This document shows, one piece after another, positions 5,685-16,929 of a stretch of DNA of 21,244 nucleotides. The DNA is from a virus. The position numbers and the translations under genes are program-made. Numbering within the stretch: the stretch's first letter is position 1; each line of letters opens with the position of its first letter. Under the pieces are notes generated by a model. It was not told where the DNA came from. It worked only from the letters and a program-made list of their open reading frames with translations, and did not search any database. The stretch covers positions 1-21,244 of the IMG/VR virus record IMGVR_UViG_3300006810_000492; one strand, 5' to 3'.

Positions 5685-6794
5685 TTAGTTTATCTTCTTA
5701 AAGTCTACATCAAGCTTATCGTAATCTACAGCTAAATATCCATCAACTTCAAACGAAACTTCTGGTACTTCTTGCGCTATAACACCTTGATATCTACCAG
5801 GGATATCTATATATTTAAATTCATAAATATTAATTCCTGATGGTGATTTACCGACTAACTCAATATCCTCTTTTAATCTTATATCACTAAACATTCCTAG
5901 CTGATAAGCAGTTCCAAGTCCACCAGCTATTTGTCCAAATGGTGAAGTTCCACCAATAACTTGTCCTAACATACCAGTACGTTCTTCTCCGTATGAACGT
6001 ATGGGCTGCCCTGCAAGTAATCCTGTTAAGAATTGAAGTTGACCTCTTTCAAATCCTTGACTTTCTACAAAGTCACGATAATCTTCTAACATTTGTTGTT
6101 GTGATATCGCTTGTTGTAAACCTCCAAACTGAGTTGCAGCTGCAGCTTCTTGAAGTCCTACTTGACCTAGTTGTGCTTGAAGAGCAGGAATTGCTTGTGC
6201 TGCAGTTATTTGCCCTTGAGCGGCAGAAGCACGATCTGCAGCAAATCTTGATGCTGCATCTTGAAAAGCTTGTGCTTGTAACTGAGCTGTAATATCACCC
6301 GCTCGTTTTGCTGTTTCAGCTTCACGAACAGCTTCTTGTACTCCCTGTCTTGCTCCACCAAAAGCACCCGATTGAATAGCTTGTGCTCTTTGCTGTTGTC
6401 CTGCTAAAGCAGACTGTTCTTGTAAATTTCTAATTGCCGCATTCGTTACTTGCTGAGTATAGGGACTCATATATTGCTGTGCTAGTTCCGGCGTAAACTG
6501 CGTTGCTGATATATTAGCGGCATTCGCAACCATCTGTTGTGCTTGCGGTATAACTCCTGATGCTCCAAATTGACCAAGCTGAGTCTGTGCTTGACTAATT
6601 GCAGCGTTTTGTAGAGCTGTTAAAGGAGCAATACGTTCACCAGTATAAGGTGTATAACCAGCTTGACTTGCAGCATTTGCTCGAGTAACTAAACTTTCCT
6701 GTATATCTTTAAAATACTGTGGAATATCGTATTGAACTTGTGATTGACTCGGTGCTTCTACTATTGTTGTAGATGGTTTAAATAAACTTCCCAT
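5685..6794 (-). CDS. Ala/Gln-rich virion protein with C-terminal S74 self-processing chaperone domain
   Basis: A 369-residue protein in two parts. Residues 1-250 are extremely Ala/Gln-rich and helical (coiled-coil-like), with blocks such as QQQRAQAIQSGAFGGARQG. Residues 275-302 are Gly-rich. Residues 303-369 match the Peptidase S74 / intramolecular chaperone domain: SDIRLKEDI gives the Ser303-Lys308 dyad at the family spacing of five, followed by YQGVIAQEVPEV. In this family the domain trimerises its partner and then cuts itself off just before the serine; here that would release 67 residues. S74 domains usually end tail spikes and fibres, so placement on a helical protein just upstream of the putative ejection proteins (T7 gp14 position) is notable. 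ATG start at 6794 in a TAATG overlap with the GNAT gene. Domain call is firm; virion role is inferred. Confidence 0.75.
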   Translation of the reverse strand: MGSLFKPSTTIVEAPSQSQVQYDIPQYFKDIQESLVTRANAASQAGYTPYTGERIAPLTALQNAAISQAQTQLGQFGASGVIPQAQQMVANAANISATQFTPELAQQYMSPYTQQVTNAAIRNLQEQSALAGQQQRAQAIQSGAFGGARQGVQEAVREAETAKRAGDITAQLQAQAFQDAASRFAADRASAAQGQITAAQAIPALQAQLGQVGLQEAAAATQFGGLQQAISQQQMLEDYRDFVESQGFERGQLQFLTGLLAGQPIRSYGEERTGMLGQVIGGTSPFGQIAGGLGTAYQLGMFSDIRLKEDIELVGKSPSGINIYEFKYIDIPGRYQGVIAQEVPEVSFEVDGYLAVDYDKLDVDFKKIN

Positions 6795-7237
6795 TATAAA
6801 TTATCTCCATACGTTCCACCAAGATATTCGAAATTCTGTCTCATTAACCACTGATGTTTTCTATCAATATCATGACCTTGCGTTATTTCTAGTATCAAAG
6901 GCATCTTCGTTATTTTAACGTATTCTTTAACATATTCTAGCAATTTTTTTGCTATTCTACTATTTCTTTTTTTATCATCTACATAGAGCCAATTCACTCG
7001 ATAAAACTTCTTATCAGTGTACCACATATCTCCTAGTACTAATGATATAGTTCCTACTATTTTACCCTCTTTTTCAGCCACTATAACGAAATGGTTATAG
7101 ATAATATCGTGAATATACGCATCTCCTTTTCCTGTATTAGGTTTTCCTAAGTCTAAAGGTGATTCTTTTAGCCAATTTAAAAGTAAGTTTCTAATAGGAC
7201 GAACATCGTCTAAAGTCGCTTTGCGATAATTAATCAA
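6794..7237 (-). CDS. GNAT-family N-acetyltransferase
   Basis: A 147-residue single-domain protein with the GNAT order: N-terminal IRKAT-like strand and helix (residues 2-24), FVIVAEKEGKIVGTISLVLG (50-69), VNWLYVDDKKR (81-91) and helix, then a late strand LILEIT and QNFEYLGG. Members transfer an acetyl group from acetyl-CoA to amines. The pyrophosphate loop, usually R/Q-x-x-G-x-G/A, reads RNSRIA (91-96), with arginine in place of the conserved glycine, so activity or cofactor binding may be altered. The substrate is unknown. The start is TTG at 7237, supported by AAAGGA a few bases upstream; it follows the nozzle gene by 12 bases. Position between nozzle and internal proteins corresponds to T7 gene 13. 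Confidence 0.8.
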   Translation of the reverse strand: MINYRKATLDDVRPIRNLLLNWLKESPLDLGKPNTGKGDAYIHDIIYNHFVIVAEKEGKIVGTISLVLGDMWYTDKKFYRVNWLYVDDKKRNSRIAKKLLEYVKEYVKITKMPLILEITQGHDIDRKHQWLMRQNFEYLGGTYGDNL

Positions 7238-7249
7238 GTAATCCTTTCA

Positions 7250-9106
7250 TTATCTATGACCATCGGGTCTAGCATCAACACGTAAAGTTCCAAATCTCCA
7301 ATTATCATCTACACTAGAATCGCTCAATATTTTAACTGCTATTTGTCTCCCTCTTGATCTAGTATTAACTTCTCTTGTACTTGATGTAATATCAATCTCT
7401 CCTGATTCCGTAGGAGTATCAGCAGGAAATTCTCTTGATAATAAATTCATTTTTACAGTTCCCTGTAAGTTTTTAAAGTCAGGAATATATCCTCGAATAA
7501 ACATGAATTGATCCCCGTCTGCTATATCTACATCTCCACTAGTAATATATGATTCCATAATCTCACCATTTTTAGTCGTACCAGTTTCTTGTTCATAAAT
7601 AAAGCTACGACCTGGCGATACTCCATTTAAAGTTTGAGATGTTGCTGCAGTAGAATTAGCGTAATATTCTGTAGCTTGAGGAACGTTGTAGACACCTTGA
7701 TCAACCCAAGTACTACGATTCATAGTTCCTATATACCATGTATTTTCTAAATAATTATAGATTACATACTTATCTACTTGACTTGAATTAGCTGAAGGGT
7801 AAAACCAGATAACTTCATTAAATTTATTATTTTCACCAGCGTAAACTTGAGGATATTGAATATTATTTATATCTCCAAATACATATGATTTAACTGTACA
7901 AGGAATTTCTTGTATTCCACCTCGATACATCATAAATCGACCTTCTGACATCCAATAAGCTGCATCATTTACTATAACAACAGCATTCATTCCTACTGCT
8001 CCACAATCAGTTCCTAATAATTTAAATCCAAAAGTATAAGGAGGACCAATAAACTGCATTGTGTGTAAAGCTTGATCAGTCCATATAAGTATTTCATTTC
8101 TAGTTTTCTTAGCAGATACGATTCTACTTCCTTCAGCTAGTCTTTGTGAACCTGCTGTATTAATAGCGTTAGCTGTCCATTGAGTAAAGTTTTCTTGATC
8201 AGACCATCTAATAAACATATCTTCTTGAGTTGAAGTATCTCCAATAGTAGTTTCAGTTCCAAAACATACTAGATGTCGATCTGGTGTAGAAACTAAACCA
8301 GTAATAGAACTAGTAGGAGCGTTATTAACAGGAACCATACGCTGAGTTACTCCTGCGGAAGTATCCCATACATATACTCCACCATCTTTTTTCCAACCAT
8401 ATAAATCTTCACCAGCGTTATCAAAAGACCACATTCCCATATTAAGTACAACGTTTGAAGTTGATCTAGCTGTTCCCCATGCTTCTGCACTCCAAGTAGA
8501 AGTGCCCCAACCATAACCTTGAGTTTGAATATCAGGTTCTATTGATATTTCAAAATCAGTATCGCCATCTCCTGTAGATGTAATACCAGCATTTGCTTCA
8601 TTAGATGGCATTTGAATGTAAAAAGCACTAGAGTTAGCTATACCTTGTATTTCAAATTCACCAGTTTCAAAGTCAGATGCTACATAAGAAGTTCCTGTAG
8701 TAAGATTAGTTACATTACTAAAAATAGCAAAATCACCTGTAGAAGCACCATGATTAGCTATTTCTACAGTAACGTTAGAACTACCATTAGTAGTTGTAAA
8801 CATATTAGTTAATGAAGTATTAGATTGTCGAATAGGAGTAACATCACTAAGATTTCCACCTGTATAAATATAAACTTTTTTATTAGTTCCAAGTCCGATA
8901 TATCGAGTACCGGCTAAATCGAACCAAGCTTTAATTCCTCTCACTGCTCCTACCATTGCTGTACTTGCAATACGAAGCCAACCACCTATTTTTTGAGGAA
9001 GTCCAAAGCGAAAACGTACTTTATCGCAATCGACCCATGTGCCTTCTGCGCCATATTCAGTGTTTTCTTTATCGATACCTGGACGGAATTGTACCTTATT
9101 TAGCAT
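7250..9106 (-). CDS. Tail nozzle/hub-like protein (T7 gp12 or P22 gp10-like), probable
   Basis: A 618-residue beta-rich protein. The opening FRPGIDKENTEYGAEG, then WVDCDKVRFRFGLPQKIGGW, is a pattern I associate with phage tail nozzle / stabilisation proteins, which close the distal end of the short tail and bind the adaptor ring. Repeated W-rich strand motifs follow (about 60-90, 200-245, 285-325), as expected for a propeller or beta-sandwich. The frame can also begin at TTG 9112, giving two more residues; I chose ATG at 9106 because neither has a ribosome site and ATG is the stronger codon. A 39-base AT-rich spacer separates it from the preceding cassette. Its place before the putative internal virion genes fits the T7 gene 12 position. 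Structural role is likely; exact homology is inferred. Confidence 0.6.
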   Translation of the reverse strand: MLNKVQFRPGIDKENTEYGAEGTWVDCDKVRFRFGLPQKIGGWLRIASTAMVGAVRGIKAWFDLAGTRYIGLGTNKKVYIYTGGNLSDVTPIRQSNTSLTNMFTTTNGSSNVTVEIANHGASTGDFAIFSNVTNLTTGTSYVASDFETGEFEIQGIANSSAFYIQMPSNEANAGITSTGDGDTDFEISIEPDIQTQGYGWGTSTWSAEAWGTARSTSNVVLNMGMWSFDNAGEDLYGWKKDGGVYVWDTSAGVTQRMVPVNNAPTSSITGLVSTPDRHLVCFGTETTIGDTSTQEDMFIRWSDQENFTQWTANAINTAGSQRLAEGSRIVSAKKTRNEILIWTDQALHTMQFIGPPYTFGFKLLGTDCGAVGMNAVVIVNDAAYWMSEGRFMMYRGGIQEIPCTVKSYVFGDINNIQYPQVYAGENNKFNEVIWFYPSANSSQVDKYVIYNYLENTWYIGTMNRSTWVDQGVYNVPQATEYYANSTAATSQTLNGVSPGRSFIYEQETGTTKNGEIMESYITSGDVDIADGDQFMFIRGYIPDFKNLQGTVKMNLLSREFPADTPTESGEIDITSSTREVNTRSRGRQIAVKILSDSSVDDNWRFGTLRVDARPDGHR

Positions 9107-9145
9107 AAACAATACTATATATTATGTTTTATTGCTATTAAACTA

Positions 9146-9682
9146 CTAATTTATATTGCATGTCATAGACAATTTTGGGCTATTTATTTCAACAACTTGA
9201 TGGTTAATAAATTTATCAAAACCAATACAGTCTTGGTCTTTTAAACTTATTTCTTTTTCGTCTATTATCCACTTTGATTTCCCAAATATATTTTTAACTA
9301 TAACTGGATAATAATGATTATGTTTATCAAAAGAAACTGATTTTTTCCCATTACCAAAATAAAAATTACAGTTACATTCTTTTTTAAAGATATTAAATAA
9401 TAACTGATTAAAAATCCAAGTATCTCTACAGAATCCATTTATTTTAGAGAAAATAAGAGTATAGCCTTCTTCATACCTTTTTATACATTTTTCAGAGTCT
9501 AGATAATCGTCTTTCCAAAAGAAGTCTTGATCTTTTTCTCCATTTTCATTTATGGCTTCAATACTAGGTTGATTATAAATTGGGTATATTTTAGGCCATC
9601 TATATCTATCTAATAATCTGTCTAATATATTTTCTTCAGTAAGATTTATTTTTTTGCTTTTTAAAAAATCTAAATTAATCAT
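9146..9682 (-). CDS. Cupin/JmjC-like protein, possible Fe(II) oxygenase
   Basis: A 178-residue protein whose C-terminal third looks like a double-stranded beta-helix core: FDKHNHYYPVIVKNIFGKSKW (around 118-138), then LKDQDCIGFDKFINHQV (147-163), then a final strand LSMTCNI. This resembles the HxD ... GxKxW ... H arrangement of JmjC/cupin_4 hydroxylases, but the first motif is H121-N-H123 instead of HxD, with H161 as the distal ligand. It may bind metal and hydroxylate a substrate, or be a non-catalytic cupin. The N-terminal half (1-110) has no family I recognise and contains CxC at 103-105. Last gene of the oxygenase cassette; its ATG overlaps the preceding stop as ATGA (9679-9682). Confidence 0.5.
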   Translation of the reverse strand: MINLDFLKSKKINLTEENILDRLLDRYRWPKIYPIYNQPSIEAINENGEKDQDFFWKDDYLDSEKCIKRYEEGYTLIFSKINGFCRDTWIFNQLLFNIFKKECNCNFYFGNGKKSVSFDKHNHYYPVIVKNIFGKSKWIIDEKEISLKDQDCIGFDKFINHQVVEINSPKLSMTCNIN

Positions 9683-10227
9683 GAATCTCTTACACTTATA
9701 TTAAACGCCATAGAAATTCTATCTTCTTCTCCTGTATGCTCAAATACAGCATGTTTTGTAAATCCAGGGAAAAGAACTAACATATTGTCCTTTAACTCAA
9801 GTGATTGTTGGTATTCTTCAAACCACATTTGAGTTAAACAAGGAACATTTAAATAAAAAGCACCCGAAAAAGGAATGTTATGAATATGAGAAATTGTAAA
9901 ATCTCCTTTTTTATGTCGCATGCCCCAAGAATTTTCTAAAGAAAAAATTGTTTTGTGATGAGGGGTTGGAGTTCTTAATGTCCAAACTGTACACAAAAAT
10001 TCAATTATTTTTTGATGAATAAAATTAAAATCTGAATCTTCCATTAATTTTGTATAGTTAGTCATGGATGCTTTTACATTAGTCATTCTCTGCATTTCAT
10101 CAACTTCTGTATATTGTTTAATTTTATTAGAAATATGTTTTATGTAGTTTTTATCATCAATAAAATCTTCAAATATATAAATACTATTAATAGCTGATGA
10201 AGAGTGTTGAAGTAATTTAAGTTTCAT
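9679..10227 (-). CDS. Putative 2-oxoglutarate/Fe(II) oxygenase (Oxy_5-like)
   Basis: A 182-residue protein resembling small phage 2OG-Fe(II) oxygenases. The core is SHIHNIPFSGAFYLNVP (113-129) with H114-I-H116, then LVLFPGFTKHAVFEHTGEED (150-169) with H159, and R170 in RISMAFNI as the likely 2-oxoglutarate carboxylate anchor. In the family I have in mind the iron-facing motif reads HxHxxxxxSG, so the absence of HxD is expected. These enzymes oxidise an unactivated C-H bond of a protein, sugar or nucleobase; the substrate here is unknown. The N-terminus IYIFEDFIDD is typical of the lead-in strand of these folds. The ATG start at 10227 overlaps the preceding gene by 11 bases. Third 2OG oxygenase of the cassette in transcription order. 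Confidence 0.7.
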   Translation of the reverse strand: MKLKLLQHSSSAINSIYIFEDFIDDKNYIKHISNKIKQYTEVDEMQRMTNVKASMTNYTKLMEDSDFNFIHQKIIEFLCTVWTLRTPTPHHKTIFSLENSWGMRHKKGDFTISHIHNIPFSGAFYLNVPCLTQMWFEEYQQSLELKDNMLVLFPGFTKHAVFEHTGEEDRISMAFNISVRDS

Positions 10228-10876
10228 AAAATTTAATTATTTCTTCTGGTATTTTACTTTTTATATAGTTTATTTGTTTTTCAGTTAATTTTCTAGTGGT
10301 ATTAGTAATATAGTCTTTTTTACGCTCATCAAAATCTTTAGCAGTCTGACTTACTCGATAATCTACATTATTAGTAAATAATATCCATTGAGCATTTCTT
10401 TTCTTTAGTCCTAATTTATTTTCTATTTGAGATAAAACTTCAACTGCTCCTGGTTGATCGCACATTTTTCTTTGATTCATAATTATATAATTAGTCCTAT
10501 TTAAATATTTAATCCAATTAGTATGAAATTCTATCCACTTTTCTATACATAAACGTAAGCTAAATCTATATTTTATATTATCGATAATTAAATCGGGATC
10601 AATATCGTCACTAAATTTAGTAAGATTCCAATAATTAATAAAATCTACATCACCTCGAATAATACTTTCTACCCACATTAAAGGTGTTTTATAACAAAAT
10701 ATTAAAGAACTGTTATTAGTTAAATTAGATGTAGCTTTATCGGCATCTGGATTATGTTTCCATGACCAATTACCAGCATCATTTATGTTTCCCCATTCAC
10801 TATAAAAATTAGTAAGAACTAATTGTTTTGCGTAATTAGTACAAGTTCTTTGAATACCAAAAGTGTAGAATTTCAC
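10217..10876 (-). CDS. Sulfotransferase-like P-loop protein
   Basis: A 219-residue protein with sulfotransferase-like elements: FGIQRTCTNY (6-15) at the place of the 5'-phosphosulfate loop, WKHNP (39-43), LIFCYKTPLMWVESI (58-72), which matches the usual strand plus vRdPxxwxxS segment that binds the 3'-phosphate of PAPS, and a late YIIMNQRKMCDQPGAVEVLSQI like the family's yExL-xDP segment, followed by LGL. Such enzymes move sulfate from PAPS to sugars, tyrosines or small molecules. The loop is not canonical and phage members of this fold may use other donors, so donor and acceptor are unknown. The start is GTG at 10876, overlapping the previous stop as GTGA (10873-10876). Confidence is moderate for the fold and low for the reaction. 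Confidence 0.6.
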   Translation of the reverse strand: MKFYTFGIQRTCTNYAKQLVLTNFYSEWGNINDAGNWSWKHNPDADKATSNLTNNSSLIFCYKTPLMWVESIIRGDVDFINYWNLTKFSDDIDPDLIIDNIKYRFSLRLCIEKWIEFHTNWIKYLNRTNYIIMNQRKMCDQPGAVEVLSQIENKLGLKKRNAQWILFTNNVDYRVSQTAKDFDERKKDYITNTTRKLTEKQINYIKSKIPEEIIKFYET

Positions 10877-11475
10877 TTTTTACTAGTTTCTCCAATAGAT
10901 TCTCTTTTGTCAAACTTATATTCTTTATAAGGTCCTTCTTGATCTACATAGTGTAAAAACACAGTTATGAAATGATCGTGTTTACAATATTCTCTCCAAT
11001 GAATTTTATCCATTCCTTTAAAAATTACTGCATTATTTGGAAGCATGGGAAATTTATAATCTATTCTATAACGATTATAGTTTCCTTGCGTATCCCAATA
11101 TTTATAATCTGAGTTTTCGTCAGCTTCTCCTACAAATATTTCGTAAGGTTCATTATGTGGTTGTGCTCCTAAACATAGTGCAACTGTGTATTCACACGAT
11201 GGTCTATCTGTATGAACTGCTAAATCAGATTCTTTATCATAAATCCTAAAAAAAGAATAAGTTGGCCATAGTCTTTTTTTCACATTTTGCTCTATAACAC
11301 TGGTGCTCATATCTAAAAGAGTTTCCATATAATAATCACTATATTGACTTACAAAACTTTTACTTTGATTATCTACATTTAATTGGTCTTTATTTTGAAA
11401 CTTTAAAAGACAGTAATTATATGAAAGATGTAATATATTTTCTGGTAAAAATTCTTTAATAAATATCGGTTCCAT
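10873..11475 (-). CDS. 2-oxoglutarate/Fe(II) oxygenase
   Basis: A 200-residue protein with a clear HxD...H core: SFFRIYDKESDLAVHTDRPS (74-93) giving H88-T-D90, NAVIFKGMDKIHWREYCKHD (148-167) giving distal H159, and FITVFLHYVD (169-178). The start of the core (YxxYxxG/ExDLxxHxDR) and the ending HWRE...FLHYVD are features of oxygenases common in marine phages. The fold hydroxylates a C-H bond using O2 and 2-oxoglutarate; the substrate is unknown. R161 or a later basic residue may anchor 2-oxoglutarate, as no arginine sits at the usual +10 position. ATG start at 11475, one base after the preceding stop (11477-11479), consistent with coupled translation. Neighbours are another oxygenase and the sulfotransferase-like gene. 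Confidence 0.8.
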   Translation of the reverse strand: MEPIFIKEFLPENILHLSYNYCLLKFQNKDQLNVDNQSKSFVSQYSDYYMETLLDMSTSVIEQNVKKRLWPTYSFFRIYDKESDLAVHTDRPSCEYTVALCLGAQPHNEPYEIFVGEADENSDYKYWDTQGNYNRYRIDYKFPMLPNNAVIFKGMDKIHWREYCKHDHFITVFLHYVDQEGPYKEYKFDKRESIGETSKK

Positions 11476-11476
11476 A

Positions 11477-12022
11477 TTAATACACCCACCCTATTATTGC
11501 GTATCTAATTCCTTTTGTAACTTTATTAACTTGATGAGGAAACATAAAATTTGAAGGGAACATTACAGCATCTCCAATATTTTGTGGGTATTGAATTTTA
11601 CCTTCTTTTCCTAAATCAAAAACAAATTCTCCGCCTGTGAAAGAATTATTTAAACAAATAGATATTGAAAAAGCTCTTTTTGTTACTTCAGTTCCAAAAT
11701 CTCTATGAAATTTGTAACCAGCATCATATTCGTTAGCGACATATTTTAAAATTTCTAATGAACTTATTTTATTAACGTCAGTTTTTTCTATGCTTTTTTC
11801 ATAAAAAGAAACACAATCAAAAATAGTTTTTTCAATATAGTTAAAACAAATTTTTTTACCAAAACTATCTTTAGTAATTGGTCTAGTATCACAGTTTCTA
11901 ATTTTTCTATTTTCCCCTCCTACAGTTTGAGCGGTTATTAGATTGTTGTCGTAATATGAAATAATTTTTTTACAGTATTCTTCTGGAATTAGTTTTTTAA
12001 CTTCTAAAATATACTCTTTCAC
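11477..12022 (-). CDS. Prolyl 4-hydroxylase-like 2OG-Fe(II) oxygenase
   Basis: A 181-residue protein with all expected residues of the P4H-type family: YDAGYKFHRDFGTE with H106-R-D108, FSISICLNNSFTGGEFVF (118-135), the beta-hairpin GDAVMFP (150-156), H163 in FPHQV and R173 in TKGIRY, ten residues after the distal histidine as usual for the 2-oxoglutarate anchor. It should hydroxylate proline or another side chain, or a sugar, using O2, Fe(II) and 2-oxoglutarate; the substrate is unknown. The start is GTG at 12022, with a GAAAGG ribosome site upstream; the ATG two bases further upstream is out of frame and stops at once. First gene of the AT-rich five-gene cassette, downstream of the tail appendage genes. 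Confidence 0.88.
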   Translation of the reverse strand: MKEYILEVKKLIPEEYCKKIISYYDNNLITAQTVGGENRKIRNCDTRPITKDSFGKKICFNYIEKTIFDCVSFYEKSIEKTDVNKISSLEILKYVANEYDAGYKFHRDFGTEVTKRAFSISICLNNSFTGGEFVFDLGKEGKIQYPQNIGDAVMFPSNFMFPHQVNKVTKGIRYAIIGWVY

Positions 12023-12035
12023 ATAAGCCTTTCTC

Positions 12036-12056
12036 TTATTAATTAAAAATTAATAA
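12036..12056. repeat. A/T-only inverted repeat at the cassette boundary
   Basis: A perfect 9-bp inverted repeat, ttattaatt at 12036-12044 and aattaataa at 12048-12056, with a 3-base loop. It covers the stop codon of the 150-aa gene and the short gap before the oxygenase cassette. Being all A/T it would be a weak hairpin, and chance occurrence in AT-rich DNA is plausible. Confidence 0.35.
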
Positions 12057-12502
12057 GTGATACTATGATTAGCTAAATAATTAACTCTAGCTGTGTCTGC
12101 TGCACTTGTAGCTGCACTTCTTGCCGCTGAATCATCTTCTAAGCCAGCGTCTGCATGAGCATCATAAGTAGAATTATAAGAAGATTGCCAAACATCTTGT
12201 GCCTCACATCTTATAACTACATTAGTAGCCCATTGAGGAAAAGAAGATAAAGATTCATTTTCCCTGTTATCTATAAATTCTAATTCGCCAGTGTTAGTTG
12301 TAGCATTCCATTGTAATGCATGGACATTAGCGTCTATTTCAGTATGGGATCTAATATTATAATAAACACGAGAATCGATATAAACATCTGATTCTGTGTT
12401 GCCTGTTCCTAACCTTGGACCGTTGCCATCTAAATATCCACCAGCATCAAAAATAATAGTTATTCTAGTATTAGCTGTTGTGTTATTTACTGTTGTTGTC
12501 AT
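12050..12502 (-). CDS. Unknown protein, likely tail appendage or accessory
   Basis: A 150-residue protein I do not recognise. It starts with a Thr/Asn-rich strand-like segment (1-20), has a GGYLDGNGPRLGTG loop, an aromatic-rich beta-like middle (about 38-105), and an acidic, Ala-rich C-terminal helix (115-140, including SAARSAATSAADTAR). The start ATG at 12502 follows AAGGAAAA and lies 20 bases inside the preceding four-cysteine gene. Its location right after the tail fibre and four-cysteine genes suggests a fibre-associated or fibre-assembly part, but nothing in its sequence shows this. No signal peptide or membrane segment. Confidence 0.6.
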   Translation of the reverse strand: MTTTVNNTTANTRITIIFDAGGYLDGNGPRLGTGNTESDVYIDSRVYYNIRSHTEIDANVHALQWNATTNTGELEFIDNRENESLSSFPQWATNVVIRCEAQDVWQSSYNSTYDAHADAGLEDDSAARSAATSAADTARVNYLANHSITY

Positions 12503-12920
12503 CTTTTTTTCCTTTCTTTACTTTTATCTTATTATTACTTAATTGTCTAATGGTTTCCTCTTCTAATTTAGGATCATTTTTTTCAATTGCTTTTTGATGG
12601 TTTCCAATTAATTCAAATATAGTAGTAGCGTTAACCATAAGATTTTTAGCTGAATCACTAGATTCTAAAAGCTTACTCATAGCATTATTTGATTTAACCA
12701 TTTCATTTCTAAATGATTCAGTTGCAGCTTGAGTTCCTTGAATATGTCTAGCGTTTTCTACTAATAATAATGGCATCCACGCTATTGAACATCCCCATTC
12801 TTGAACAGGAGCCCCTGTTTGTGGATGTGCTCCTTGAAGCATGTTATACCAAATACATTGGTGTTTAATACATTTTTTATTTAAAAGTGGACATTTTCCG
12901 TCCGGGTCGAATATGGGCAT
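12483..12920 (-). CDS. Four-cysteine virion-region protein, possible metal or Fe-S site
   Basis: A 145-residue protein with a compact N-terminal cysteine set: C10, C17, C22 and C44 in DGKCPLL, KKCIKHQCIWY and EWGCSIAW. The spacing (x6, x4, x21) would suit a zinc or iron-sulfur site. Then comes a hydrophobic helix (about 45-58, WMPLLLVENARHIQG), an amphipathic helical middle, and a basic Lys-rich tail (128-145). Similar cysteine-first proteins occur, from memory, beside tail fibre genes in other marine phages, so the family looks conserved; its function is unknown to me. The start ATG at 12920 has an AAGGAGAG ribosome site. It follows the tail fibre gene and precedes the unknown 150-aa gene. 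Confidence 0.65.
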   Translation of the reverse strand: MPIFDPDGKCPLLNKKCIKHQCIWYNMLQGAHPQTGAPVQEWGCSIAWMPLLLVENARHIQGTQAATESFRNEMVKSNNAMSKLLESSDSAKNLMVNATTIFELIGNHQKAIEKNDPKLEEETIRQLSNNKIKVKKGKKDDNNSK

Positions 12921-12935: not shown

Positions 12936-14045
12936 TTAGTCTTTATTTGCTACAATTACGTTTGCGTATTTGACGTTCATCGCAGGTATAGATAATGGAG
13001 TATCTGCTGTTGACGCACTTGATAGAGAACCACTAAATGGGTGAGCATGCGATCCACCACCACCTGCTGGTTGCCATGTTTGAGGCTGAAAACTAAAAGG
13101 CCAAGGTTCTGCATTTCTATTATAAAAACTACTTGTCAACCAGTTCCATTGTGGATTTGGGTTATAAGGAGCTGGAGACTGACCACTTGGTTTGTGATTG
13201 TGCGAAGCTATTTGAGGAGTTGAAAGAGTTGTATCGCCCACAGTTCCTGACAAAGAACCTGAAACAGGAATTGTTCCTGTATTAACAGTTTTAGAAGAAG
13301 TAAAAGTTGAATAAAAAGAATCAGCTCCACCAGTTCCACCACCAGTTCCTGTTACAATAGACATTGCAGTATTTGCTAAAGCTGCACCTGTTTGTTTAGT
13401 CCAACCAGTCGGTGCTGAAGCTTGATTAAAAATCATTGAAGTATTAGCTTCGAAAGGATCAACGCCTGATAATCCAGCGCCGTTACCAGTAAATGAAGTT
13501 GCTGAAACTAAACCGTTAGCGTTAAGTGTAACTGCACTATTAACTGTAAGTGTACCTGTCATGGTAGTATCACCAACAATATTAGCAGTTCCTTTTACTG
13601 AAAGTGTTCCTAAAGAATTTGCAAATAGATCGACCATACCTGTACCTGCTTTATTATACATAATAGTATGAGCACCTTGAGTAATTGCTACACCATTAGC
13701 AGAATGGCCTGTTGGCGCAACTGTTAATGAAAAAGCACCAGCAGTATTATTATAAAAAATATATTCTTTTTCTACTGCAGGAACAAATACATAAATATTT
13801 CCGGTTAATGTCCCTGTAAATTCAATAATTTTATTAGCAGATTCATTTGTAGTTTCTACATTTGGATCTCTATTCGCTTGAGTTAAAGTAACGTTAGTTG
13901 AACCCGCAACTGACTTAGAAAGATATCCGCCGATAGCTGCATCTACAACTTCTAAGTTTTCGTTTGTATTATTTCCCCAAACACCAGAATTGGCGCCTGC
14001 TTCCATTAATTCTAATTTTAATCTATCTGAATAATTACTTGCCAT
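12936..14045 (-). CDS. Tail fibre with collar-type receptor-binding end
   Basis: A 369-residue fibre protein. Residues 1-45 (YSDRLKLELMEAGANSGVWG then NNTNENLEVVDAAIGG) are a common phage fibre N-terminus, followed by beta-rich shaft segments to about 190 with fibre-type repeats (GTLTVNSAVTLNANGL, SATSFTGNGAGLSG). Residues 200-240 (SMIFNQASAPTGWTKQTG onward) match the tail-collar domain opening. Two HxH motifs, H282-N-H284 and H333-A-H335, lie in the Gly/Pro-rich tip; in T4 long tail fibres HxH histidines from three chains bind iron ions along the tip. The ending PAMNVKYANVIVANK is typical of the collar domain. It probably trimerises and binds the host receptor. The start ATG at 14045 has AAGGAG overlapping the previous stop. 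Confidence 0.8.
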   Translation of the reverse strand: MASNYSDRLKLELMEAGANSGVWGNNTNENLEVVDAAIGGYLSKSVAGSTNVTLTQANRDPNVETTNESANKIIEFTGTLTGNIYVFVPAVEKEYIFYNNTAGAFSLTVAPTGHSANGVAITQGAHTIMYNKAGTGMVDLFANSLGTLSVKGTANIVGDTTMTGTLTVNSAVTLNANGLVSATSFTGNGAGLSGVDPFEANTSMIFNQASAPTGWTKQTGAALANTAMSIVTGTGGGTGGADSFYSTFTSSKTVNTGTIPVSGSLSGTVGDTTLSTPQIASHNHKPSGQSPAPYNPNPQWNWLTSSFYNRNAEPWPFSFQPQTWQPAGGGGSHAHPFSGSLSSASTADTPLSIPAMNVKYANVIVANKD

Positions 14046-15484: not shown

Positions 15485-16138
15485 TTATTGGCTACCCGTT
15501 AGGGTGTCCGTGCCAGCTACGCTAGCAGGGAATTTGTAATCAGTTCGTCTGCGCCTTCTTGCTTGATTATTAAGACCAGCTACGATCTCCTGATATCTTT
15601 TATTATACAACGGATAATCTACTTCATTTTTTGTAAAAATAGAAGCTTCGGCTAAACAACCATAAAGTAATGCGTCATCAGCAAATTCAGTTAGCCAATT
15701 AGTTGTATTTGTATTTGAAAGATTTTGAATACGTGCAATGTATTGCATATGCACTGTGTAAGCTTGATCTGGTGTAGGTGCTAAGATTGTAGTATTATCA
15801 TCAAAATTAGCAAAATATTTAGGAAGTCCAGTTTGAGTTGCATCTGGCCAATATTCATATAAATATTCATCAGTTTTTATTTCTAAGAATATCTTATCGT
15901 TTCCATTAAAAACCATTAAATTTTTAATAATTAATAAATCACTTGGATTACTCATATATTGATTATTAGCGTCTAAAGTAGTATATGAATTAAAAGTAAA
16001 CGCTTCAGGATCAATTTCTCTTAATAATCGCTGTTCCGTATTATTAATAAATACGTCTAATTGATTAGTAAAATCAGTTCCTGTATTTTGCATCCAAGTT
16101 TGGATATCTGTTTTTAAATCTGAATAAGTTGTTGCCAT
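15485..16138 (-). CDS. Adaptor / tail-tube-A-like neck protein
   Basis: A 217-residue protein with the layout of podovirus head-tail adaptors (T7 gp11-like): N-terminal helices with YSDLKTDIQTWMQNT and LDVFINNTEQRLLREID (6-43), a strand region with NPSDLLIIKNLMV (64-76) and KIFLEIKTDEYLYEYWPD (82-99), the strand-turn LAPTPDQAYTVHMQYIARI (116-134), then helices WLTEFADDALLYGCLAEASIF and YNKRYQEIVAGL (146-189), closing with a basic RRRRR tract. These proteins form a dodecameric ring under the portal. A second protein of similar layout is encoded at 17271-17954. ATG start at 16138 in a TAATG overlap with the glycosyltransferase stop. Confidence 0.6.
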   Translation of the reverse strand: MATTYSDLKTDIQTWMQNTGTDFTNQLDVFINNTEQRLLREIDPEAFTFNSYTTLDANNQYMSNPSDLLIIKNLMVFNGNDKIFLEIKTDEYLYEYWPDATQTGLPKYFANFDDNTTILAPTPDQAYTVHMQYIARIQNLSNTNTTNWLTEFADDALLYGCLAEASIFTKNEVDYPLYNKRYQEIVAGLNNQARRRRRTDYKFPASVAGTDTLTGSQ

Positions 16139-16929
16139 TATGTTGCTATACTATCTTTTTTTGCAAATTTATGCGATACATTTCCTCTAAATCCATAAGT
16201 TCCAAAATGAGTTAAAGAACTTTGAATTTCAGCGTATATTTTTCCACCTATTTGCTGCCATCTACGACAGAATGTGTAATCTTCACTTAAATATCTATTA
16301 CTTTCAGGATCAATAATACAATCGAAAAATGAATAACACCAATCGCTAGAGTATCTCCCATTATTAATAATCTGATCTGAAGTATATTTTAATTGAGGAA
16401 AATGTTCTTTCATTTTAACAAATACATCTTTTTTAATAAGCATAAAACCAGTAGCTGCATCCAATACTTCTACAAATCCGTTTTCTACTTGAATATTCAT
16501 AGGATCAGCGAAGTTCATATTATATCCTAATAACTTCTGTTCTAATGCTTGTGTATCTCCCTTTTTCAAATAATATTCTAAGTTTTGCCATTCAATTGAT
16601 TTTCTTGGATAGATAGCTGAAACGACATCTTTATCGTGTTTCAATAACTTAGTAACTAATTCTGGGTTAAAAGCGATATCTGAATCTATAAATAATAAAT
16701 GAGTACAATGTTCTGTATCCATAAATTGAGAAACGATAGTATTTCTTGCTCTAGTAATTAAACTTTCATTTCCCATAGTATTTAAATGAATCTTATAACC
16801 ATTTTCTTTTGCTTCTTGTAATAATTTAATTACACTATGAAAATATGCTTCGTGCATTAAACCACCATAACATGGTGTTCCAATCATAACATATGCGTCT
16901 TGTAAATTAACTGATGACGACTGAGACAT
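16138..16929 (-). CDS. GT-A type glycosyltransferase
   Basis: A 263-residue glycosyltransferase domain. Visible elements: MIGTPCYGG (15-23) as the nucleotide-sugar loop, NTMGNESLITRARNTIVSQF (50-69), LLFIDSDIAF (78-87) with the D82-S-D84 DxD metal/UDP motif, AATGFMLIKKDVF (158-170) and SEDYTFCRRW (215-224) with the acidic E216-D217 expected near the catalytic base, then H241. It should move a sugar from a nucleotide-sugar donor; acceptor unknown. The gene sits inside the neck-protein run, which suggests a virion protein or host surface target, though no sequence feature identifies it. ATG at 16929 has GGAG upstream and lies within the 3' end of the 124-aa gene (23-base overlap). Confidence 0.85.
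   Translation of the reverse strand: MSQSSSVNLQDAYVMIGTPCYGGLMHEAYFHSVIKLLQEAKENGYKIHLNTMGNESLITRARNTIVSQFMDTEHCTHLLFIDSDIAFNPELVTKLLKHDKDVVSAIYPRKSIEWQNLEYYLKKGDTQALEQKLLGYNMNFADPMNIQVENGFVEVLDAATGFMLIKKDVFVKMKEHFPQLKYTSDQIINNGRYSSDWCYSFFDCIIDPESNRYLSEDYTFCRRWQQIGGKIYAEIQSSLTHFGTYGFRGNVSHKFAKKDSIAT

Follow-up and report, generated by a model that had tools for sequence, protein, structure and literature searches.

Variable regions around the tail fibres of marine phages, described as host-recognition clusters or metaviromic islands, carry Fe(II) oxygenase and glycosyltransferase genes (PMC7029224, PMC3909814), and the host-recognition genes already catalogued in metaviromic islands include some for Fe(II) oxygenases (PMC3909814). 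In HTVC023P-type pelagiphages, partner genes between structural genes and the nozzle gene have been described as a 2-oxoglutarate (2OG)-Fe(II) oxygenase and a ferrochelatase (PMC9599517; the word sulfotransferase is absent from its main text). The cyanomyovirus S-SCSM1, with 24 oxygenase genes that were taken as host-metabolism genes, encodes a two-domain 2OG protein, ORF248 (PMC9602691). Here we analyse IMG/VR virus record IMGVR_UViG_3300006810_000492, the whole 21,244 bases of which we call the window, and in it a minus-strand cassette of five genes (positions 9146–12022) between the tail-fibre and nozzle genes. As in the described clusters, the region is variable and surrounds a tail fibre. 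It differs from them in that a constant pair of predicted oxygenases (E and D) is co-inherited with the fibre tip, that a separate, exchangeable island bears sulfotransferase genes, and that the two oxygenases are fused behind another type of fibre. We see an even chance that the cassette genes are part of a host-recognition module in which the fibre, most likely at its tip, is modified by hydroxylation and then by conjugation.

A five-gene cassette between fibre and nozzle

In operon order the genes are:

E, 11477–12022, minus strand: GTG start; 2OG-Fe(II) oxygenase (2OG-FeII_Oxy_3), constant partner of D
D, 10873–11475, minus strand: predicted oxygenase of a family labelled ferrochelatase (PHROG 2954), constant partner of E
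C, 10217–10876, minus strand: GTG start; sulfotransferase-like P-loop protein
B, 9679–10227, minus strand: 2OG-Fe(II) oxygenase of the 2OG-FeII_Oxy_5 type, belongs to the exchangeable island
A, 9146–9682, minus strand: small cupin/JmjC-fold protein with H121-x-H123 and H161

A preliminary description of the window had placed five tightly packed genes between fibre and nozzle, and both the position and the recomputed coordinates agree: A and B overlap by 4 bases, B and C by 11 and C and D by 4, and a single base separates D from E. The 27-base spacer it gave on the E side (12023–12049, up to gene F) is likewise confirmed, and the 39 bases on the nozzle side hold if the nozzle gene starts at the ATG at 9106, and fall to 33 if its start is the TTG at 9112. 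The same genes are encoded, with 99–100% protein identity over the covered part, in three further metagenome assemblies (L002, L003 and L004), so the cassette is not an assembly artefact.

The guanine–cytosine (GC) content of 17–23% first reported applies to single lines of sequence only. The cassette has 26.4% GC and the lowest 500-base stretch 23.2%, whereas the whole window has 33.8% and the capsid gene 40.9%. At third codon positions, GC is the same in the cassette genes (0.14–0.18) as in the neighbouring fibre and nozzle genes (0.15). The low GC of the cassette thus reflects amino-acid content and is no mark of recent import, and a foreign origin deduced from it was rejected.

E and D are a constant pair in related loci

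Relatives were gathered from IMG/VR with C, A and D as queries and reduced to 74 non-redundant loci. Separate E and D genes are present in all 55 of the non-redundant loci that show both fibre and G, a small gene beside the fibre. The order fibre-G-F-E-D is constant, except that occasionally one more oxygenase-like gene separates fibre from G; a variable island and then the nozzle gene follow. Six loci have another fibre C-terminus, and all six carry a protein of 90–100 residues together with a fused D-E protein of 370–405 residues. Since loci fetched with D are biased towards the presence of D, the A search was used as a neutral set; there, D and E occur in 17 of 17 non-redundant fibre-bearing loci (11 separate, 6 fused). 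Within this phage group there is good support for D and E as a constant pair at the fibre and, because E and D occur fused, they probably act as a complex.

The related locus L104 shares most of its surrounding genes with the window (mostly at 84–97% identity); its fibre C-terminus, its fused D-E protein and its island differ. It is a natural module swap that extends from the fibre C-terminus to the island.

The five genes had been proposed to form one pathway, an idea that comparison with relatives did not sustain, since only E and D are constant and C, B and A are separately exchangeable. All five families occur together in only one distinct relative, L055, where A lies beyond the nozzle gene. 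A fixed five-gene system was therefore rejected: in other loci, C, B and A stand next to E-D in other orders or not at all.

Oxygenase identity of E, B and D

The identity of E and B as 2OG-Fe(II) oxygenases is firm at the level of domain and motif. E matches PF13640 (2OG-FeII_Oxy_3; 3.3e-13), and within this Pfam-recognised domain has the HxD...H facial triad and an Arg near the C-terminus, as H106-x-D108, H163 and R173, all invariant across 28 loci. B matches PF13759 (1.9e-11) and PHROG 81 (4.1e-18). PHROG 3531, which E of the window also matches, is likewise named ferrochelatase; its first half matches D and its second half E, and it appears to describe D-E fusions.

These assignments bear on DNA modification, in which 2OG oxygenases would hydroxylate a base and a glycosyltransferase would cap it, as with phage TET-like enzymes. 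An oxygenase combined with a glycosyltransferase is the known logic of phage DNA modification, and some D relatives adjoin DNA methyltransferase or replication genes. However, E and B match 2OG-FeII_Oxy_3/5 and neither matches Tet_JBP in Pfam, the lone match to which is weak and at superfamily level (L104, 0.0087). The annotated island families include no recognised DNA methyltransferase gene, and the cassette lies among tail genes, linked to the fibre tip. We regard DNA modification as very unlikely.

PHROGs, GenBank and a 2022 paper (PMC9599517) all give the family of D the label ferrochelatase. D matches PHROG 2954, which bears that name, at 2.6e-34, with no significant match in Pfam. In an alignment of 22 sequences, H88, D90, R91, H159, W160 and R161 are invariant, and 12 distant homologues, annotated ferrochelatases included, also keep H88, D90 and H159, the HxD...H pattern of an oxygenase metal site. 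The longer signature HxDR...HWR is present in ferrochelatase-annotated genes of S-PM2, S-SSM5, S-RIM32, HTVC008M, Syn30, HTVC023P and HTVC033P. Fused proteins have it too in their D part, which in one of them matches PhyH (1.3e-5) and 2OG-FeII_Oxy_2 (5e-4). The 2OG-binding Arg or Lys about 10 residues past the distal His is not evident, and an invariant Arg stands two residues after that His (HWR). A search with ferrochelatase profiles gave no match at E ≤ 1 in the 22 D members or in six cyanophage and pelagiphage homologues, five of them annotated as ferrochelatase. A search of PDB sequences with a D profile returned nothing relevant, and a pattern scan of bacterial genome contigs confirmed no relative. 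From these motifs we have good grounds to call D an oxygenase. The published ferrochelatase reading of the D-type partner gene is probably wrong because of the HxDR...HWR signature, the lack of a match to ferrochelatase models and the PhyH match in a fused relative. Tandem D paralogues occur at L006:3908–5139, the second being 47% identical to D of the window.

In HTVC023P-type pelagiphages the same D family stands beside E-like oxygenases; there the D-type gene was taken as a haem enzyme (PMC9599517), whereas our alignment points to an oxygenase. That label had supported an iron/haem interpretation. In a metabolic reading, the oxygenases would drain 2-oxoglutarate or reprogram the nitrogen, iron or haem metabolism of the host. 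Metabolic effects have been proposed for cyanophages (PMC3037559) and S-SCSM1 (PMC9602691) and, with the ferrochelatase partner, for HTVC023P-type pelagiphages (PMC9599517). The apparent ferrochelatase, however, has the metal-site signature of an oxygenase and matches no ferrochelatase model, and a bulk drain of 2OG would need no fibre-specific pair. We consider a metabolic role the least probable of the explanations weighed here.

Co-inheritance with the fibre tip

We compared pairwise distances among 26 dereplicated loci by Spearman correlation. D tracks the fibre tip at 0.63 (0 of 1,000 permutations) and E at 0.69, and E tracks the tip at 0.51. The nozzle gene correlates with neither D (0.03) nor E (0.04) and follows the fibre N-terminus and the glycosyltransferase (0.59 each). 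The boundary of the module thus falls within the fibre gene, with the tip tracking D and E while the N-terminus tracks the nozzle gene. For D and E only, this pattern favours a virion substrate.

Linkage without shared function would give a similar picture if recombination junctions lay inside the fibre gene and beyond D, the enzymes between them having unrelated tasks. The drop in correlation between D and the nozzle gene is what such a junction predicts, and G and F, neither recognisable as an enzyme, also track the tip. Set against this, the alternative fibre module brings a D-E protein of its own in that very position, and S-SCSM1, an unrelated myovirus, repeats the arrangement, with the fibre-tip domain, a G homologue and, one gene further behind them, ORF248, a 453-residue protein in which D (residues 38–182) and E (269–452) are joined. 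We think linkage alone improbable. Among other cultured phages, S-SCSM2R has G followed by a fused D-E protein, with glycosyltransferases, and P-SSM2 has the tip, G and an E-like gene.

Genes flanking the cassette

The neighbouring features are:

Tail-fibre gene, 12936–14045, minus strand: N-terminal part stays with the phage backbone, C-terminal tip co-inherited with G-F-E-D (distance correlations)
G, 12483–12920, minus strand: small Cys-rich protein that adjoins the same fibre tip in unrelated phages
F, 12050–12502, minus strand: fibre-linked protein between G and E in related loci
Glycosyltransferase-like gene, 16138–16929, minus strand: PHROG 34859 (glycosyltransferase), 1.6e-8
Nozzle/virion structural gene, 7250–9112, minus strand: PHROG 3287, 8.1e-92; far-side border of the island

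The tip domain has two HxH motifs that flank a variable loop, and is present in four cultured cyanomyoviruses and a Roseobacter phage. G is up to 90% identical among relatives and stands beside the same tip domain in the cultured phages P-SSM2, S-SCSM1, CRP-361, S-B43 and RN05-S; it is a candidate fibre-tip cofactor or chaperone. The glycosyltransferase-like gene, a relative of which matches Anp1 weakly (0.0024), lies between D and the nozzle gene in most relatives and upstream of the fibre in the window and L104. Directly after the nozzle gene, a GNAT acetyltransferase gene (6794–7237) occurs, among the loci, only in the lineage of the window and in L104. A short open reading frame at 232–501 with a GxxDVV...IDIKSE pattern is PD-(D/E)XK nuclease-like by eye, and another at 3–245, cut by the contig edge, is T4-type lysozyme-like by eye.

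The exchangeable island

From D to the nozzle gene extends an island of exchangeable genes, to which C, B and A belong. The 53 complete islands show 43 gene orders, and clusters that were given a class, for the most part oxygenase or glycosyltransferase, account for approximately 95% of their genes; classes were assigned from Pfam matches of representatives, with several oxygenase-like clusters and the methyltransferase-like cluster k29 assigned by sequence reading. Sulfotransferase-type genes, counting C, occur in 9 of the 53 islands. Three other families are recognised as sulfotransferases by Pfam, two inside the island (L051, PF00685, 4.7e-11; L074, PF03567, 4.5e-5) and one beyond the nozzle gene (L115, PF03567, 2.1e-11). 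At L030:3706–5925, genes for a TOD1/MUCI70-type glycosyltransferase, a radical SAM protein and a sugar epimerase follow one another in the island. The theme of oxidation and conjugation put forward in the preliminary description is upheld in that dozens of related contigs combine oxygenases with glycosyl- and sulfotransferases in this slot.

The main competing explanation is that the island modifies surface glycans of the host (O-chain or capsule) during infection, blocking superinfection or adsorption to the debris of lysed cells, and lies near the fibre since both belong to the host-recognition cluster. The glycosyl-, sulfo-, carbamoyl- and methyltransferase and epimerase genes that the region holds in relatives are typical of glycan tailoring, host-recognition clusters of pelagimyophages with glycosyltransferases have been interpreted in this way (PMC7029224), and the glycosyltransferase tracks the backbone and not the fibre tip. 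This explanation leaves unaccounted for that E and D track the tip and change form with the type of fibre. We would give it something over one chance in four; both fibre and host-glycan modification may be true, for different enzymes.

Fold comparison of C and A

C was modelled from ten sequences, and the 1,000 best Foldseek chains were realigned with VIA-align. In this low-confidence model (predicted local distance difference test, pLDDT, 55.7), sulfotransferases or close homologues make up 49 of the 50 best VIA-align rows, at Z 4.8–6.1; a Z below 8 can by itself reflect a common arrangement, and the signal lies in the uniformity of the match list. Two of the 49 rows are retinol dehydratase, a member of the sulfotransferase superfamily. 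Foldseek alone could not place C (best E 0.08). Pfam, NCBIfam and PDB sequences gave no sulfotransferase match and PHROGs no informative one, and tblastn of cultured phages found no C.

The best fold matches are enzymes dependent on 3'-phosphoadenosine 5'-phosphosulfate (PAPS), namely SULT, tyrosylprotein sulfotransferase and 3-OST, whose P-loop and K/R-x7-S pattern have candidate counterparts in C. FGIQRTCTN (residues 6–14) is a candidate 5'-phosphosulfate loop and K63-x7-S71 a candidate 3'-phosphate site; both FGxQRTCTN and K63-x7-S71 are invariant in the 10 C sequences. These motifs resemble the classical ones without being identical, with Cys in place of the usual Gly of the P-loop and Lys in place of the usual Arg of the 3'-phosphate site. 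A hidden Markov model of C, run against other island proteins, gave no link to the Pfam-recognised sulfotransferases, so that these and C are either very distant or separate families. C is probably sulfotransferase-like.

A was modelled from six sequences (pLDDT 60.4, residues 24–84 poor). The model has the double-stranded β-helix of cupin/JmjC enzymes, with a Foldseek E of about 1e-6 and a VIA Z of about 12 to YcfD, NO66 and PHD2, and its predicted fold is good. H121, H123 and H161 are invariant and fit a metal site. Catalysis by A is uncertain because the usual acidic ligand at the HxD/E position is not evident in the alignment. Compared with the JmjC ribosomal oxygenases YcfD and NO66, A has the same fold but is much smaller, at 9–15% identity, and has no evident acidic metal ligand. 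It belongs to a nameless PHROG and has homologues in cyanophage S-SSM7 and pelagiphage HTVC008M. All five enzyme classes first guessed for the cassette are thereby supported, those of B and E through Pfam, that of D through its motif and relatives, and those of A and C through fold comparison only.

Discussion

We infer the substrate, the order of reactions and the effect on host range as follows. During virion assembly, the E and D pair of Fe(II)/2OG oxygenases would hydroxylate fibre side chains, most likely at the C-terminal tip. The next targets, those of the island enzymes, would be these hydroxylated residues or sugars bound to them: the glycosyltransferase (here at 16138–16929) would add a sugar, C would add sulfate from PAPS, and B and A would oxidise further. 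Swaps of island genes would alter the chemical coat of the receptor-binding structure with the fibre gene unchanged. In collagen-type modification, a lysyl or prolyl hydroxylase acts before a glycosyltransferase, so that a fibrous protein is hydroxylated and the new hydroxyl conjugated; the likeness to our proposal is one of logic only. A gene near the D-E fusion of S-SCSM2R bears the annotation glycosyltransferase family 25, which is suggestive only. Our literature search for hydroxylation or sulfation of phage fibres found no paper.

Several observations weigh against modification of the fibre. The D–tip correlation exceeds D–F and D–G by no significant margin (95% limits of the excess, −0.06 to 0.50 and −0.02 to 0.30), so physical linkage explains part of the correlation between D and the fibre. 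Where the glycosyltransferase touches D (n = 8), it correlates with D at 0.58. The glycosyltransferase keeps to the backbone, as noted above. CRP-361, S-B43 and RN05-S have the tip and G without D or E nearby, so the tip does not always need them; more distant D relatives of cyanomyoviruses lie away from fibres, as in Syn30 (between a DNA methyltransferase and a clamp-loader gene) and S-PM2 (near a helicase), so an association with fibres is not general in the D family. The low confidence of the C model counts on the same side.

A wider proposal, that exchangeable hydroxylating, glycosylating and sulfating enzymes set the surface chemistry of the fibre and that changes of host recognition evolve through swaps of these enzymes in addition to mutation of the fibre, is more tentative, and we hold it at about one chance in three. 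It would include sulfation of a phage fibre, without report in the literature searched. If modification of the fibre is correct, it would give a role to some, at the least, of the 2OG oxygenases that marine phages carry in large numbers and that lack an explanation. Marine phages would then tune host recognition by post-translational chemistry that is invisible to sequence-based predictions of receptor binding.

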